Part shown: piece by piece, positions 19,272 through 24,647 of the stretch
How the letters are laid out: each line of letters starts with the position of its first letter
How positions within the stretch are numbered: the first letter of the stretch is position 1
DNA from: Pelagibacteraceae bacterium AG-349-O05
Lineage (GTDB): Bacteria; Pseudomonadota; Alphaproteobacteria; Pelagibacterales; Pelagibacteraceae
Assembly (NCBI GenBank): GCA_003281005.1
Contig: QCDE01000009.1
Location: 1-46,265, forward strand
DNA length: 46,265 nt
Reading direction: 5' to 3'
Notes under the pieces: generated by a model
Databases searched by the model: none
The model's input: the letters and a program-made list of their open reading frames with translations, nothing else
Told to the model about the DNA's origin: nothing
Translations under genes and position numbers: made by a program

Positions 19272-19279
19272 CGAGTTTT

Positions 19280-19999
19280 TTAATAAAAATATTTATATTT
19301 ATATATTGTTATCAAAGCAATTATAGCATCTTTAAATCTAATTTTTTTTCCATCTTTTATTTCTCTACCATTATAACTAATTGGAACTTCAGTTATTGAG
19401 CAAGATAATTTTGAAAGTTTAGTAGTAACTTCTGGGCAAAAAGAGAAATCTTTTTCTTTAATTTTTAACTTAAAAAAAATATCTTTTCTAAAAACTTTAT
19501 AACATGTATGAACATCAGTTAGAGATTGCTTATTAATATAATTTGATATTTTTGTTAAAGTATAATTTCCAAATATCCTAAAGCTTTTTGAAAAATGAAT
19601 AAAATGAGACGAAAAAGGTATTTTTTTTCTTCCCAATACTCTTGAACCATATACTACTTTGATATTTTTATTCTTGAACGGTTCTAGAAGTTTATAATAA
19701 TCTTTGGGATTATATTCTAAATCAGCATCTTGTATGAGTACTATATTTCCTTTAATGAATTTTAAGGAACTTTTAATTGCAGCTCCTTTACCCTTGTTTT
19801 TCTTATGAAAAATTACCTTGTCTACTCTTTTAAGTAATTTCTTCTTAATTAACTCCTTAGAACCATCGGAGGAGTTATCATCAACTAAAATAATTTGTTT
19901 TTTTATATTTTTTAATCTTTTTATTTGATTTATAACTTTTAAGATCGTTTTTTTTTCGTTAAAACAAGGTACTATTATGGATAAATAAATTTTATTCAC
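19280..19999 (-). CDS. Family 2 glycosyltransferase, polyprenyl-phosphate sugar synthase-like
   Basis: 239 residues with a GT-A fold opening SIIVPCFNE, then VDDNSSDGS near 38, KNKGKGAAIKSSL near 67, the metal-binding DAD of IQDADLEY near 92, and PISYNGREIKDGKKI near 211. This set matches dolichol-phosphate-mannose synthase-like enzymes, which put a sugar from a nucleotide donor on polyprenyl phosphate. There is no C-terminal membrane helix pair, only a short hydrophobic tail. It diverges by 36 bases from a GT-C-like membrane protein, which would be a natural user of such a lipid-linked sugar. The sugar is unknown. Confidence 0.82.
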   Translation of the reverse strand: MNKIYLSIIVPCFNEKKTILKVINQIKRLKNIKKQIILVDDNSSDGSKELIKKKLLKRVDKVIFHKKNKGKGAAIKSSLKFIKGNIVLIQDADLEYNPKDYYKLLEPFKNKNIKVVYGSRVLGRKKIPFSSHFIHFSKSFRIFGNYTLTKISNYINKQSLTDVHTCYKVFRKDIFFKLKIKEKDFSFCPEVTTKLSKLSCSITEVPISYNGREIKDGKKIRFKDAIIALITIYKYKYFY

Positions 20000-20035
20000 A
20001 AAATAATTTAATAGATACTGATTTTAAATAATTTA

Positions 20036-21703
20036 ATGCTTATTCAGTTATTACACTCTATTATAACTTTAACGTTAATTTTTACAACTATTTATTGTTG
20101 CGGCTTAGGAATACTTAAAAAAATTAATTTAAAAAACGATCAGGATATTTTTTTAAAAATTTTAGTTGGTTATACCTTTGTAGGAACAATTGCTGTATTG
20201 GTTCATTTTTTTTTTAAAATTCATAACATATTTTCATTTTTATTAATTTGTTTGAGTGTAATTTTTTTTTTAATTTTTTATTTGAAAGAGGTAAAGAAAG
20301 AATTTTTTATTTTTATTTCATTATTGATATTAATTAGTCCATTTCTCTTTGCATATTCGGACCACCCAATTGACTCCAATATGTATCATCACCCATACGT
20401 ATCTTATTTAAAAGCAGAAAAAATTATATTTGCCATAGCAAATATACAATTTAGATTTGGGCATATTTCTTTTTTACAGTTTGTTCAAGCAGCTTTTATG
20501 AATGATTTTTTTCATAAAATTGCTTTAAGCTCTATTAACATAATTTTTTATTTATCTTTTATTTTCTTTGTATCAAAAAAAATTTTTATTCAAAAAAAAT
20601 TAACCTATAATTTTTTAACTACTATTTTAATATCAGGTTTTATTTTAATAAAATTTGCAAGATATAGAGAATTTGGTAATGATTTAATTCCACTACTTAT
20701 TTGTTCATATTTTTTAATTATAATACTAGATGAAATTAATAAAAAAACTAAACTTTCAAAGAATTCTATTAACCTATTCTTAATTTTTTTTGCATTGATG
20801 TTTGTTCATAAAATTTCTTATGTATTCGCAAGTTTAATTTTTCTTGTATTGTTCAAATATAAAAATTTAGAATTTTTAAGAGATGTAAAAATATCAAATA
20901 TTTTTGTTAGTTTTTTGATATTAATACCTTGGATCGTTAAAAATTATTTTGAAACTAGCTGTATAGTCTATCCAATAGAGATAACTTGTTTCTCTAATCC
21001 ATACTATAGTTTAACAGGTTTAGCAGATCCTTCTTCGGCATCTTGGTTGACTGAAATCTGGGCAAAAGGTTTTATAGACAATCCAGAATGGCGTAACCTA
21101 AATTTATCTGAATATGCAAAAGGATTTAATTGGGTTCCAACTTGGATAAATGGTCATTTCATAAAAATTTTAGAAATAATATCACCATTAATTTTTTTAA
21201 TTTTTTTAATATCCATTTATTTAGTTAAAAACAGAAAACATTTTCTTTTGAAAAAAAATGAAAGTGAGAATAAAAAATATTATTCAATTTTATTAATTTT
21301 AATTTTTATTGGATTAAGTATCTGGTTTTATAAAGCACCAATTTTTAGATACGGCTCATTTTATATTATATCGTTTATTATCATTGGTTATATGCTTTTA
21401 TTAATGCAATTTTCAAAAATAAATAATTCAAACAAAATAAATTATTTCAAAGGAATTTTTTTTATTTGTCTGTTATTTTTTGTATCAAAAAATATGTTAA
21501 GAATTAATAAATCTTCAACAGAATTTTTTCCTAAAACTATAAATCAAGATTTAAAAATACAAAATATTAATGGTTTAAACTTGTCTAGATCTACAAATCC
21601 ATCTTCTTCACTTTGTTTTTATACTTACTACATTTGTTCACATGAATTACCAAAAAATTTAAAAGTAAATAAAATAAATAATTACTTCATCATTTCAAAA
21701 TAA
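20036..21703 (+). CDS. Multi-spanning membrane protein, GT-C-like glycosyltransferase candidate
   Basis: 555 residues with roughly 11-13 hydrophobic segments. Between the early helices is a loop with SDHPIDSNMYHHPYVSYLK (residues 108-126), in the position where GT-C enzymes carry catalytic acidic residues, followed by RFGHISFLQ. A C-terminal loop holds two cysteines near 531 and 538 (SLCFYTYYICSHE). The layout resembles large, poorly characterised membrane proteins found in bacterial polysaccharide clusters. GT-C enzymes transfer sugars from polyprenyl phosphates on the periplasmic side. The divergent neighbour is a GT2 of the type making those donors. It is very A+T-rich, consistent with an accessory gene. 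Function is inferred. Confidence 0.6.
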   Translation: MLIQLLHSIITLTLIFTTIYCCGLGILKKINLKNDQDIFLKILVGYTFVGTIAVLVHFFFKIHNIFSFLLICLSVIFFLIFYLKEVKKEFFIFISLLILISPFLFAYSDHPIDSNMYHHPYVSYLKAEKIIFAIANIQFRFGHISFLQFVQAAFMNDFFHKIALSSINIIFYLSFIFFVSKKIFIQKKLTYNFLTTILISGFILIKFARYREFGNDLIPLLICSYFLIIILDEINKKTKLSKNSINLFLIFFALMFVHKISYVFASLIFLVLFKYKNLEFLRDVKISNIFVSFLILIPWIVKNYFETSCIVYPIEITCFSNPYYSLTGLADPSSASWLTEIWAKGFIDNPEWRNLNLSEYAKGFNWVPTWINGHFIKILEIISPLIFLIFLISIYLVKNRKHFLLKKNESENKKYYSILLILIFIGLSIWFYKAPIFRYGSFYIISFIIIGYMLLLMQFSKINNSNKINYFKGIFFICLLFFVSKNMLRINKSSTEFFPKTINQDLKIQNINGLNLSRSTNPSSSLCFYTYYICSHELPKNLKVNKINNYFIISK

Positions 21704-21726
21704 TTACATTCAGATTATAAAATTTT

Positions 21727-22911
21727 TTATTTTTTAAATATTTCGTAAAACTTTTCCCAAGTAGATAATTTAGAATGTTTAGATGACTGAATATAATTTT
21801 TGATATAATTATTATAATGTTTATCAATTACCTGAAAATCTTTTTTCAATATAGAAAACTTAGCAGTTTCAATATCATAACTTCTTTTTTTTAATGTTGA
21901 AGATAATCCGGCAATGTATTTTTTATTATATTCTTTCATTTTATTATGGTGACAAAAAATGATTGGTCTTTTCCACAAGATAGCTAATTGTATAGCTGAG
22001 CTATTATGTGAAATTACTAATTTTGATTTTTTTATAAATTTAGCTGTTTGACCATCAATAATCTTAAATTTTTTTTCTTTAAAAATTTTTTTTAACTTAT
22101 TTTTATATAAATTATTACTTCTAGGATGAATTGCTATAAATATCTTGTAATTAAATTTTTTATTTAAATCATTAAAAAATCTTTTCAAATCTGAAAAATA
22201 CTTTTTTTCAATCGGATCTTTATTATAGTTTTTATTAAAAAATAATTCAGGATGATCAAAAATTATAGCATCAATAAATAAAGCATAATTTGAATAAATT
22301 AAATTCTTTTTCTTTTTATTTTCTTGTAAAAAAAGATCATAATCAAAGCAATGTGAATAAACAATTTTAGTCTTAGGTGAATAACTTAATTTTTCTTTTA
22401 AGCCAGAAATAAATGAATAATTTGGTATTGGATAAAAAAATTTAGTTAATATATTGGAAATATAATTAAATATTAAACTTATAACACCAGTAATTAAATT
22501 AGATTTATTAAATAAAATATCAATTAATTTTTCTTTTTTTGACATATGTATTTCTTCAGGTAAAAGACAAGATGTAACATTAATCTTTCTCGCTCCTCTT
22601 AAAACTAAATATTTTTGAATTAAGCCAAATACAAATGATTTATATGTTGTGCAATCTACAAAATAAATTTTTTTTAAATTTTTAATTAATTTAAGAGTTT
22701 GATAATATGAGTTAACTTCTAGGAAATTTTTATTATTAATATAAATTTGGGATTTCTTTCCATATACTTTGTTTATATTTTTATTAAACAGCCCAGATAT
22801 ATTCCAAATTTCAACTTGAAAGTTTTTTTTTAATGAATAGTAACCAAATCTTTGTAAATTACGTTTGTCTATTGGCTGACTTAAGAAAATTATTATTTTC
22901 TTTTTTTGCAC
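21727..22911 (-). CDS. GT-B-like surface carbohydrate biosynthesis protein, function unknown
   Basis: 394 residues, extremely Lys/Asn/Ile-rich. Visible markers are FIDAIIFDHPELFF near 216, AIHPRSNN near 262, and SHNSSAIQLAILWKRPIIFCHH near 300 (the last read as two overlapping parts). The HPR-type basic motif and S-x-x-x-x-x-A-x-x-x-K-P-I-I-F loop are those of capsule/CDP-glycerol-transferase-like GT-B proteins. A hydrophobic stretch around 140-160 may be peripheral membrane contact. It lies 14 bases after the radical SAM stop on the same strand, so the three minus-strand genes here may be one operon. The donor and acceptor are unknown, and it is not an obvious paralogue of the gene at 3118-4509. 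Confidence 0.55.
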   Translation of the reverse strand: MQKKKIIIFLSQPIDKRNLQRFGYYSLKKNFQVEIWNISGLFNKNINKVYGKKSQIYINNKNFLEVNSYYQTLKLIKNLKKIYFVDCTTYKSFVFGLIQKYLVLRGARKINVTSCLLPEEIHMSKKEKLIDILFNKSNLITGVISLIFNYISNILTKFFYPIPNYSFISGLKEKLSYSPKTKIVYSHCFDYDLFLQENKKKKNLIYSNYALFIDAIIFDHPELFFNKNYNKDPIEKKYFSDLKRFFNDLNKKFNYKIFIAIHPRSNNLYKNKLKKIFKEKKFKIIDGQTAKFIKKSKLVISHNSSAIQLAILWKRPIIFCHHNKMKEYNKKYIAGLSSTLKKRSYDIETAKFSILKKDFQVIDKHYNNYIKNYIQSSKHSKLSTWEKFYEIFKK

Positions 22912-22925
22912 CCTTAAATTCCAGA

Positions 22926-23825
22926 TTATCTGGCTTTTATTTTTGTCTCGGGACTAAGGAGACGATGTTTACTACTGTCTTCAGAGCTATGTGAAATAAA
23001 ATCTCTGTACCTTGAAGGTGTCCAAGAAAATGAATTTTTTATAATGTCTTCATTTGTAAATTTTGTATTTAAAATTTTATAATTCCCCTTTTGAACTTTT
23101 AAAGATCTTTCCTTTAAAATTTCATAGTTTGATTTAGAGATTGTATCTTTAGTTGGCCCTGTTCTTCCACCGAAGCCATCACTTTCATGGGGCAAAGGTA
23201 TTGGTGCACTGCATTTTCTACAACTAGTGGCCATTTGGTTTTTAAATGCATCTAAACTTTGTTTCCACCAACCCTTTTCTATTGGCACTCCACCTGGACC
23301 ATCCAAAAGATAATCTAGTGAAGCTGCTACTTCACAAAAAAAACCACCCTTAGGAGTGATTGATGCTGACCATTGTTCTTGAACCCAACAATTATTAATT
23401 AATTCATCAGCTAATTCTTTATCTTCGACAACATCATCGATTGCAACAAGTAATGGCTGATGCTTACCTGGTGCGGTGTGATCATTATATGTTATATAAT
23501 CTTCATCAAAATGTTCATAAATTAAATCTTTATTTTCTTCCCATTTAAATCCAGCTGTCCAAATATGACGTTTCCTTCGTTCAGTTTTTTTTGCAAATAT
23601 TTCTATTATTTCTTTTATTTGAGGATGCATGAATGGCTCTCCGCCCATTAAGCCTACTCTTCCAGGAAAACCTTCTAAACTGTCAATTGCACGCTCCACT
23701 GTTTCGAGATCCATAAAAAAAGGTTTTTTGTGGTGACCTACATGACGTGTACAGTTAGCACACCTCAAATGACAAGCATTTGTGACCTCAACATGTATTG
23801 TATGCATTTCAGCTAAATCTCTCAT
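22926..23825 (-). CDS. Radical SAM protein with an auxiliary cysteine cluster
   Basis: 299 residues. The CxxxCxxC cluster motif is C18-C22-C25 within TNACHLRCANC, and GGEP (the SAM-binding motif) is at 61-64, followed by a partial TIM barrel. C146, C164, C202 and C205, the last two as CRKC, could bind a second iron-sulfur cluster in a SPASM/twitch-like arrangement. The final 80 residues are polar and without recognised motif. It overlaps the upstream pentapeptide-repeat gene by four bases (ATGA), implying coupled translation. Two 60-base lines sampled in this gene are near 37% G+C, against about 20% in lines sampled from flanking genes, which suggests a different origin. The substrate is unknown; a sugar, lipid or peptide modification are all possible. 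Confidence 0.78.
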   Translation of the reverse strand: MRDLAEMHTIHVEVTNACHLRCANCTRHVGHHKKPFFMDLETVERAIDSLEGFPGRVGLMGGEPFMHPQIKEIIEIFAKKTERRKRHIWTAGFKWEENKDLIYEHFDEDYITYNDHTAPGKHQPLLVAIDDVVEDKELADELINNCWVQEQWSASITPKGGFFCEVAASLDYLLDGPGGVPIEKGWWKQSLDAFKNQMATSCRKCSAPIPLPHESDGFGGRTGPTKDTISKSNYEILKERSLKVQKGNYKILNTKFTNEDIIKNSFSWTPSRYRDFISHSSEDSSKHRLLSPETKIKAR

Positions 23826-24415
23826 GAACCTACTTTATTATTTTTTACAAACATGCACAACTGTTTATTTGTTTCATGAATTACAGTATTTTTTTTTTCA
23901 CAGTCTAAAAATTTAGATAATGTAAGATTAGAATCTTTAAACTCTACCTCTGATAAATTGGCATTCAAACACATAAACATAAACATTTTACATTTACTAA
24001 AAGTAATTTTGTTCAATTTACTGTTTTCGAAAATTGACCTACTCATTTCAGATTTTAAAATTTCAAGATTTTCTATAAGAGACTCTTTAAAATGAGTACC
24101 TCTAAATTTAACGCTATTAATATAGCATTCTTTAAAATGTGAATTTATAAACTTAGAAGAACTGTAAAATGTCCCTTCAAAAGTACAATTTTTAAAGATC
24201 ACATCTTTAAATCCTGATGCTTCCCAATGTGTTTTATAAAAATTACAATTTTCAAATTCTGTTTCAAAAACTTTAGCCTCTTTAAAATAGGCAAATGTAA
24301 AATCACAATTTATAAATTTACATTTTGATATAAAAGAGAAATTTTTAACAGCTTCTTTAAAATTTTCATCTGTATAAATTTTACCCTCAAATATATGTTT
24401 TGATTTTTTTTCCAT
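23822..24415 (-). CDS. Pentapeptide-repeat protein
   Basis: 197 residues, no signal peptide. From residue 34 to about 172 a bulky hydrophobic residue recurs every fifth position (F34, F39, F44, V49, F54, F59, W64, F69, F74 and so on), giving some seven 20-residue coils of a right-handed quadrilateral beta helix. Cysteines C37, C57, C77 and C97 fall exactly 20 residues apart, so they stack on one face, at the inward i-2 position. Cysteine at this position is also common in Qnr-type proteins, but length and loops do not establish that identity. It is the first gene of a probable three-gene unit with the radical SAM and GT-B-like genes, about 155 bases from a tRNA-Arg. Function is unknown. Confidence 0.82.
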   Translation of the reverse strand: MEKKSKHIFEGKIYTDENFKEAVKNFSFISKCKFINCDFTFAYFKEAKVFETEFENCNFYKTHWEASGFKDVIFKNCTFEGTFYSSSKFINSHFKECYINSVKFRGTHFKESLIENLEILKSEMSRSIFENSKLNKITFSKCKMFMFMCLNANLSEVEFKDSNLTLSKFLDCEKKNTVIHETNKQLCMFVKNNKVGS

Positions 24416-24570
24416 TATAATGTGATTATTCTTTATTTTTGCAATTATTAAAAAACTTGTATTTTGTGAACATAATTATTTGTTTAAATTACACTTTAAA
24501 TAACAAACTCAAAGTTGAAATTTTTTATCCATTATCTCAATTTATAAAAAAAAGCAAACTATTAAATAAG

Positions 24571-24647
24571 TGGTGCACGACCAAGGAGTTGAACCCTGAA
24601 CCTCTCGATCCGAAGTCGAGCGCTCTATCCAATTGAGCTAGTCGTGC
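24571..24647 (-). tRNA. tRNA-Arg (anticodon TCG)
   Basis: A full 77-base cloverleaf read on the minus strand. The acceptor arms GCACGAC and GTCGTGC pair perfectly. The D arm is GCTC/GAGC. The anticodon stem CTCGA/TCGAG carries loop CTTCGGA, so the anticodon is TCG. The T arm is CAGGG/CCTTG with a TTCAACT loop. Discriminator A and an encoded CCA end the gene at 24571. It reads CGN arginine codons, mainly CGA and CGG. The gene stands between the accessory island and the conserved rluD-rpoH pair; no attachment-site duplication was noticed. Confidence 0.96.

Follow-up and report, generated by a model that had tools for sequence, protein, structure and literature searches.

A pentapeptide-repeat gene overlapping a radical SAM gene at a tRNA-Arg gene of a SAR11 bacterium: recurrence, predicted fold and possible function

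The gene pair and its island

The window, i.e. the whole stretch of DNA analyzed, comprises 46,265 nucleotides of contig QCDE01000009.1 from Pelagibacteraceae bacterium AG-349-O05. It carries a pentapeptide-repeat (PPR) gene followed by a radical SAM (rSAM) gene (Table 1). Both reading frames were found where the initial annotation had placed them, together with the four-base overlap it had described: on the minus strand, the PPR stop and the rSAM start share ATGA at 23822-23825. The rSAM start is supported by a Met in the start column of 112 of the 113 aligned rows. Since the genes overlap, the PPR protein is probably encoded on the same message as rSAM. The enzyme class is a known one. Descriptions of the rSAM family, of its glycan and phage-structural settings or of its pairing with a PPR partner were not found in the open-licence literature searched (most subscription journals lie outside it), and the initial annotation likewise knew of no described system that combines the two genes.

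Table 1. Gene pair, tRNA and neighboring features, in window coordinates
Feature	Coordinates	Strand	Basis
Island	19272..24570		absent from 11/11 comparable relatives
Family 2 glycosyltransferase (GT2), same island	19280..19999	-	PF00535, 2.5e-30
LIC_10190-family membrane protein, same island	20036..21703	+	120.8 bits, cut-off 100
Glycosyltransferase-like gene (GT-B guessed from motifs)	21727..22911	-	ORF call
Radical SAM gene (rSAM), twitch-type, 299 aa	22926..23825	-	ORF call, Pfam, alignment, predicted fold
Pentapeptide-repeat gene (PPR), 197 aa, about 7 coils, pI 8.75	23822..24415	-	ORF call, Pfam
tRNA-Arg(TCG), island edge	24571..24647	-

The tRNA-Arg(TCG) gene noted beside the pair was confirmed; it lies upstream of the PPR gene, from which 155 bases separate it. 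At the other end, the next gene does start 14 bases past the rSAM stop (at 22911), as had been claimed; its label as a GT-B-like glycosyltransferase gained no confirmation in profile searches. The encoded protein had no Pfam match over the cut-off, no NCBIfam match and no convincing PDB profile match, the PDB search yielding weak AcrIIC3 matches only, which were taken as chance. Relatives of this gene were present in 7 of 249 other genomes of the genus. At four of its eight loci (L228, L229, L230 and L233) a gene read from its sequence as cytidylyltransferase-, amidotransferase- or aminotransferase-like was adjacent.

An ABC permease gene, tRNA-Arg(TCG) and an rluD-like gene (names from sequence reading) were adjacent in all 11 relatives having both genes, with about 105-125 bases between the permease and rluD-like genes. 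The window has 5.3 kb (19272-24570) between the permease gene and the tRNA, and the distance from the tRNA to the rluD-like gene is 180 bases versus about 20 in the relatives. The window tRNA-Arg(TCG) is a diverged allele with 84% identity over 57 bases to that of relative G012, and its only other match in its own genome was a tRNA-Thr. It differs from the tRNA of the relatives as if it had been swapped together with the island. A search of the rest of the window for the tRNA 3' end, tolerating three mismatches at most, found no repeat, and no integrase was recognized among the island ORFs. In genome G007 a different cassette occupies the same tRNA-Arg (L226:2963-6188), with an epimerase, a membrane protein and a glycosyltransferase by sequence reading, which suggests that glycan genes are inserted preferentially at this site.

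The GC content of rSAM is 0.351 versus 0.19-0.23 in the other island genes. A recent transfer of rSAM was considered from this value and dropped, because its GC3 (0.207) is like that of core genes (0.219 for the rpoH-like gene and 0.205 for the permease gene). Elsewhere in the genome, contig C32 encodes a NeuC above cut-off as well as NeuB-like and PseF-like proteins below theirs.

Cysteines and predicted fold of the radical SAM enzyme

The rSAM protein matched Pfam Radical_SAM (E 2.4e-9). In an alignment of 113 of 147 ORFs (the 34 left out were short or >88% identical), the extra cysteines pointed out in the initial annotation, C146, C164, C202 and C205, were invariant (113/113 rows), and they are predicted from the sequence to bind an auxiliary cluster. 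The three cysteines of the CX3CX2C radical SAM motif (C18, C22 and C25) were also present in 113/113 rows, with a first spacing of 4 in 112 of them. The spacing between C146 and C164 was 18 in 101/113 rows, and that between C202 and C205 was 3 in 113/113. Further positions invariant across the 113 rows were G62, N114, H122, F163, E165, W186 and W187; H116 and W152 were nearly so. Among the best 25 NCBIfam models listed for the window protein, none came near its cut-off, so the family seems to be without an NCBIfam model of its own.

An AlphaFold2 model computed from the 113-row alignment had a mean pLDDT of 92.3 and showed a radical SAM core plus twitch fold. It ranked closest to SpeY (PDB 7wzv, 7wzx, 7x0b; Foldseek E 3.4e-10; VIA Z 16.8 over 240 residues, 3.3 A) and next to BtrN (PDB 4m7t; Foldseek E 3.2e-5; Z 11.3 over 188 residues, 3.8 A), followed by a sactipeptide enzyme (Z 9.6) and other radical SAM folds lower down. 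SpeY, a twitch radical SAM dehydrogenase, is a single chain of similar length, and the predicted fold match to it extends over nearly the whole chain; however, identity is 15%, and the window rSAM family sits in glycan and phage clusters. BtrN, the twitch dehydrogenase of butirosin, was the top match of the family profile against PDB sequences (1.2e-5). Its positions 232 and 235 aligned with C202xxC205, in the low-scoring second segment of that match. Identity to BtrN is 18% over 188 residues, and N114, H122, E165, W186 and W187, as well as the nearly invariant H116 and W152, are specific to the rSAM family. According to the available part of PMC9012708, the auxiliary cluster of BtrN is ligated by four cysteines, as is predicted for rSAM, and is the proposed electron acceptor in a two-electron oxidation. 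SPASM-domain maturases share the radical SAM core but have a seven-cysteine C-terminal motif and two auxiliary clusters (PMC6231123, as far as its accessible text goes), whereas the window family has four invariant cysteines past the core.

A second reaction that a sugar-modifying member of this superfamily might catalyze is radical epimerization, in which a sugar carbon would be inverted instead of dehydrogenated. In its favor are the glycan context (see below) and the superfamily shared with NeoN, a radical SAM epimerase of an aminoglycoside, which uses Cys249 as donor (PMC10991966, available section). Beyond the seven cysteines, the 113 rows contained no further invariant one that might serve as hydrogen donor; the next commonest cysteine column reached 58/113. 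We prefer dehydrogenation, given that the closest fold matches are to dehydrogenases and that a conserved donor cysteine is lacking, and regard an epimerase as quite unlikely.

An antiviral, viperin-like enzyme was suggested by a weak PADLOC pVip match (E 3.2e-7). That match is confined to residues 10-80, the NCBIfam viperin score was 23 against a cut-off of 180, and the best viperin fold reached Z 8.0 versus 16.8 for SpeY, so this assignment is disfavored as highly improbable. A role in defense was dropped, the pVip matches being weak and the only ones.

The pentapeptide-repeat protein and recurrence of the pair

The PPR protein matched Pfam Pentapeptide_4 (E 1.7e-18). Its residues 26-170 form 29 consecutive pentapeptides, or about 7.25 coils of 20 residues, which bears out the seven-coil helix initially proposed; the fourth place is hydrophobic in 28 of the 29 pentapeptides and Cys in the remaining one. 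Qnr and MfpA, which are acidic DNA mimics, and other pentapeptide-repeat proteins share the repeats with it. The window protein, in contrast, lies far under the NCBIfam cut-offs (Qnr, 32.6 bits against 240) and is basic, as are the corresponding proteins of the related loci L034, L035 and L036 (pI 8.7-9.0). Basic pI and low Qnr scores disfavor a role as DNA mimic. We know of no beta-helix partner of this kind for other radical SAM enzymes.

Recurrence of the pairing was examined at 137 related rSAM loci, of which 57 were chromosomal, from a scan of genome contigs that rests on two peptide patterns, and 80 were the best of 159 viral loci. At least 700 bases upstream of rSAM were available at 126 of the 137, and the PPR search also covered every ORF of 60 aa or more. 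A PPR gene lies directly upstream of rSAM on the same strand in the window and in its three closest bacterial rSAM relatives, with an 8-base overlap in L034, a 39-base gap in L036 and a 47-base gap in L035, and at no other of the 137 loci. A search with only the window PPR protein as query matched the three paired PPR proteins with E values of 7e-19, 1e-11 and 4e-6. ORFs with a crude pentapeptide score at L031, L127 and L155 were dropped; they are antisense to rSAM and had no PPR profile match. On a quick rSAM tree the four paired loci require one change (support 66) and stand next to 15 phage rSAMs. The contig of L035 (9.4 kb, 26% GC) is placed in a Verrucomicrobia bin, but only tentatively, so all four pairs may be from SAR11.

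The comparison was also made from the side of the PPR genes. PPR matches occurred in 44 of 101 SAR11-genus genomes, and among 30 SAR11 PPR loci examined an rSAM of this family was present at the window's own only; none was found within about 1.5 kb of the other 29. The enzyme itself is rare in SAR11 (2/399 genomes of the genus and 1/397 of the order, in partly overlapping samples). The proposal to list the neighbors of homologues thus gave a mixed answer: the pair does recur outside the window, but at 3 of the 137 rSAM loci (best 80 of 159 viral loci included), and among the 30 SAR11 PPR loci it is confined to the window's own. The pairing is real but limited to one marine subclade, for which chance is unlikely. 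It may have formed once: four loci in one subclade with one change on the tree could represent a single historical event kept by linkage.

These same counts can be read as hitchhiking, in which PPR and rSAM would be unrelated cargo of glycan islands, joined once by chance. Such an origin would fit the single change on the tree, the small number of paired loci (3 of 137, with the best 80 of 159 viral loci, plus the window) and the 29 SAR11 PPR loci without a neighboring rSAM. It does not readily account for the overlap or close spacing that is kept across four loci despite differing flanks; the flanks differ among all four pairs, apart from a GT2 gene immediately next to PPR and rSAM in L034, L035 and L036, and no GT2 directly adjoins the window pair. 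PPR genes are, moreover, few in SAR11, where fewer than half of the genomes had any match. When the pair-associated PPR proteins were compared with each other in both directions, 11 of the 12 scores exceeded the best of the 29 other SAR11 PPR proteins (two of the 11 by <1 bit; the exception is L034 versus L035). We consider hitchhiking possible but on the unlikely side.

Of the roles first suggested for the PPR protein, that of a substrate of rSAM is not supported, because 134 of the 137 loci (best 80 of 159 viral loci included) show no PPR gene. Its confinement to the marine subclade also indicates that the enzyme family at large does not need it. For its role, as for any contact with the enzyme, we infer that it is most likely a non-catalytic scaffold or docking partner of the rSAM system.

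In L034, tRNA-Arg(TCG) lies 22 bases past the GT2 gene of the module; no tRNA was found near the module in L035 and L036. At another related locus (L088) a tRNA-Ser follows rSAM after 34 bases.

Genomic neighborhoods of the enzyme and proposed function

Neighbors within 5 kb of rSAM were counted by greedy longest-ORF gene picking and single-linkage clustering, with cluster names assigned from representatives and checked on few members; in GC-rich loci antisense ORFs can mask true neighbors in these counts. Among the 57 chromosomal loci, GT2 genes were present at 35, epimerase-like genes at 18, cytidylyltransferase-like genes at 8, HisF-like genes at 6 and N-acetyl sugar amidotransferase-like genes at 5, and 41 had at least one of the five sugar-gene clusters. 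A WbuX amidotransferase scored above cut-off near rSAM in L034 and in the phage locus L120. In the window's genome, which is 87% complete, WbuX had no match at E 1e-10, so that an amidotransferase setting like that of L034 was not recovered. Carriers of rSAM include Beijerinckia mobilis, Methylosinus sp. Sm6 and Sporofaciens musculi.

The neighborhoods and the predicted fold support the glycan role that had been offered as one option for the pair. With moderate confidence, we read PPR and rSAM as a co-inherited unit in a surface-glycan island, in which rSAM is a sugar-oxidizing twitch enzyme and the PPR protein its non-catalytic partner. The C18/C22/C25 cluster would generate a 5'-deoxyadenosyl radical, which would remove hydrogen from a hydroxyl-bearing carbon of the sugar. 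The second electron would pass to the putative C146/C164/C202/C205 cluster, leaving a keto-sugar as product. The substrate would be a sugar of the surface glycan, either nucleotide-activated, lipid-linked or already attached, and would be handled by the neighboring glycosyltransferase. The beta-helical PPR protein may hold rSAM, its substrate or the transferase.

Portal, scaffold-like or head genes were present within 5 kb at 43 of the best 80 of 159 viral loci. On the viral contigs L092-L117, from uncultured podovirus-like phages, rSAM lies between scaffold-like and major head genes (e.g. L106:6978-10423). In L106 the rSAM neighbors matched terminase, head-tail adaptor, major head and tail families, and the scaffold-like gene itself matched a PHROG of unknown function. 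Among 50,697 records of cultured phages no match was obtained to the rSAM proteins of the window, L092 or L122. A variable region with radical SAM gene cassettes is described for pelagimyophages in the available part of PMC7029224.

The viral settings bear on a further explanation, in which the target of rSAM would be the PPR protein or some other peptide or protein, for phages conceivably one of the head. The overlap of the two genes in the window would suit such a reaction, as would the scaffold-like gene near rSAM at 23 of the best 80 of 159 viral loci (22 of them within 150 bases), all 23 lacking the counted glycosyltransferase classes, and a head-protein gene within 5 kb at 17 of the same best 80 of 159. 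The fold leaves the substrate unfixed, since the chemistry of twitch enzymes varies and SkfB, itself a twitch enzyme, has a peptide as substrate (PMC6231123, in its accessible text). A PPR gene is missing, however, from 134 of the 137 related loci (the best 80 of 159 viral loci among them). The first barrel strand of the model begins at residue 9, with no separate peptide-binding domain ahead of the core, and the two top folds are those of dehydrogenases, of which BtrN acts on a small molecule (PMC9012708, available part). A peptide or protein substrate is improbable on this evidence, and oxidation of a sugar remains our preferred reading.

A glycosyltransferase (GT)-like gene was found at 34 of the best 80 of 159 viral loci: at L143 (6892-7998) and 33 others it stands beside rSAM, often together with head genes. 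This gene gave no Pfam match (L170 tried), no PHROG match (L143 tried) and nothing in a PDB profile search. In a model built with 32 of the 34 sequences aligned, the top fold matches were the PBCV-1 capsid glycosyltransferase (Z 13.1, 179 residues), a xyloglucan xylosyltransferase (Z 12.6) and an alpha-1,3-galactosyltransferase (Z 12.3). A GT-A fold is therefore predicted; the matches are tied and so point to the fold and not to capsid specificity. Amidotransferase-like genes were present at four and cytidylyltransferase-like genes at five of the best 80 of 159 viral loci. On the phage contigs L120, L121 and L134 such nonulosonic-acid-type genes lie near rSAM and GT2, and L120 carries a NeuB-like gene as well.

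Antibiotic pathways are the known setting of twitch radical SAM dehydrogenases, and SpeY belongs to one of them. BtrN is another example (PMC9012708, in the part available). If the proposal is correct, radical chemistry would serve to produce unusual sugars at the cell surface and perhaps on the virion, with possible effects on phage-host recognition, and twitch radical SAM enzymes would have a novel type of accessory in the PPR protein. A broader version, in which rSAM is a widespread family of sugar oxidases acting on bacterial-surface glycans and on the virions of uncultured tailed phages, where its gene lies with scaffold, head and GT-A genes, and with the PPR protein an obligate scaffold subunit in marine SAR11, appears doubtful at present.

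At 32 of the 57 chromosomal loci, rSAM ends in a C-terminal tail that is 100 aa or longer. Six long-tailed rSAMs were compared with Pfam; a GT2 domain was found in L031 and a Glyco_transf_7C domain in L152, both viral, and none in the other four, so the tails are not proven transferases. L152 (1484-4462), which bears the Glyco_transf_7C domain, and L166 (6490-9417) encode fusions of rSAM with long tails that reach nearly 1000 aa.
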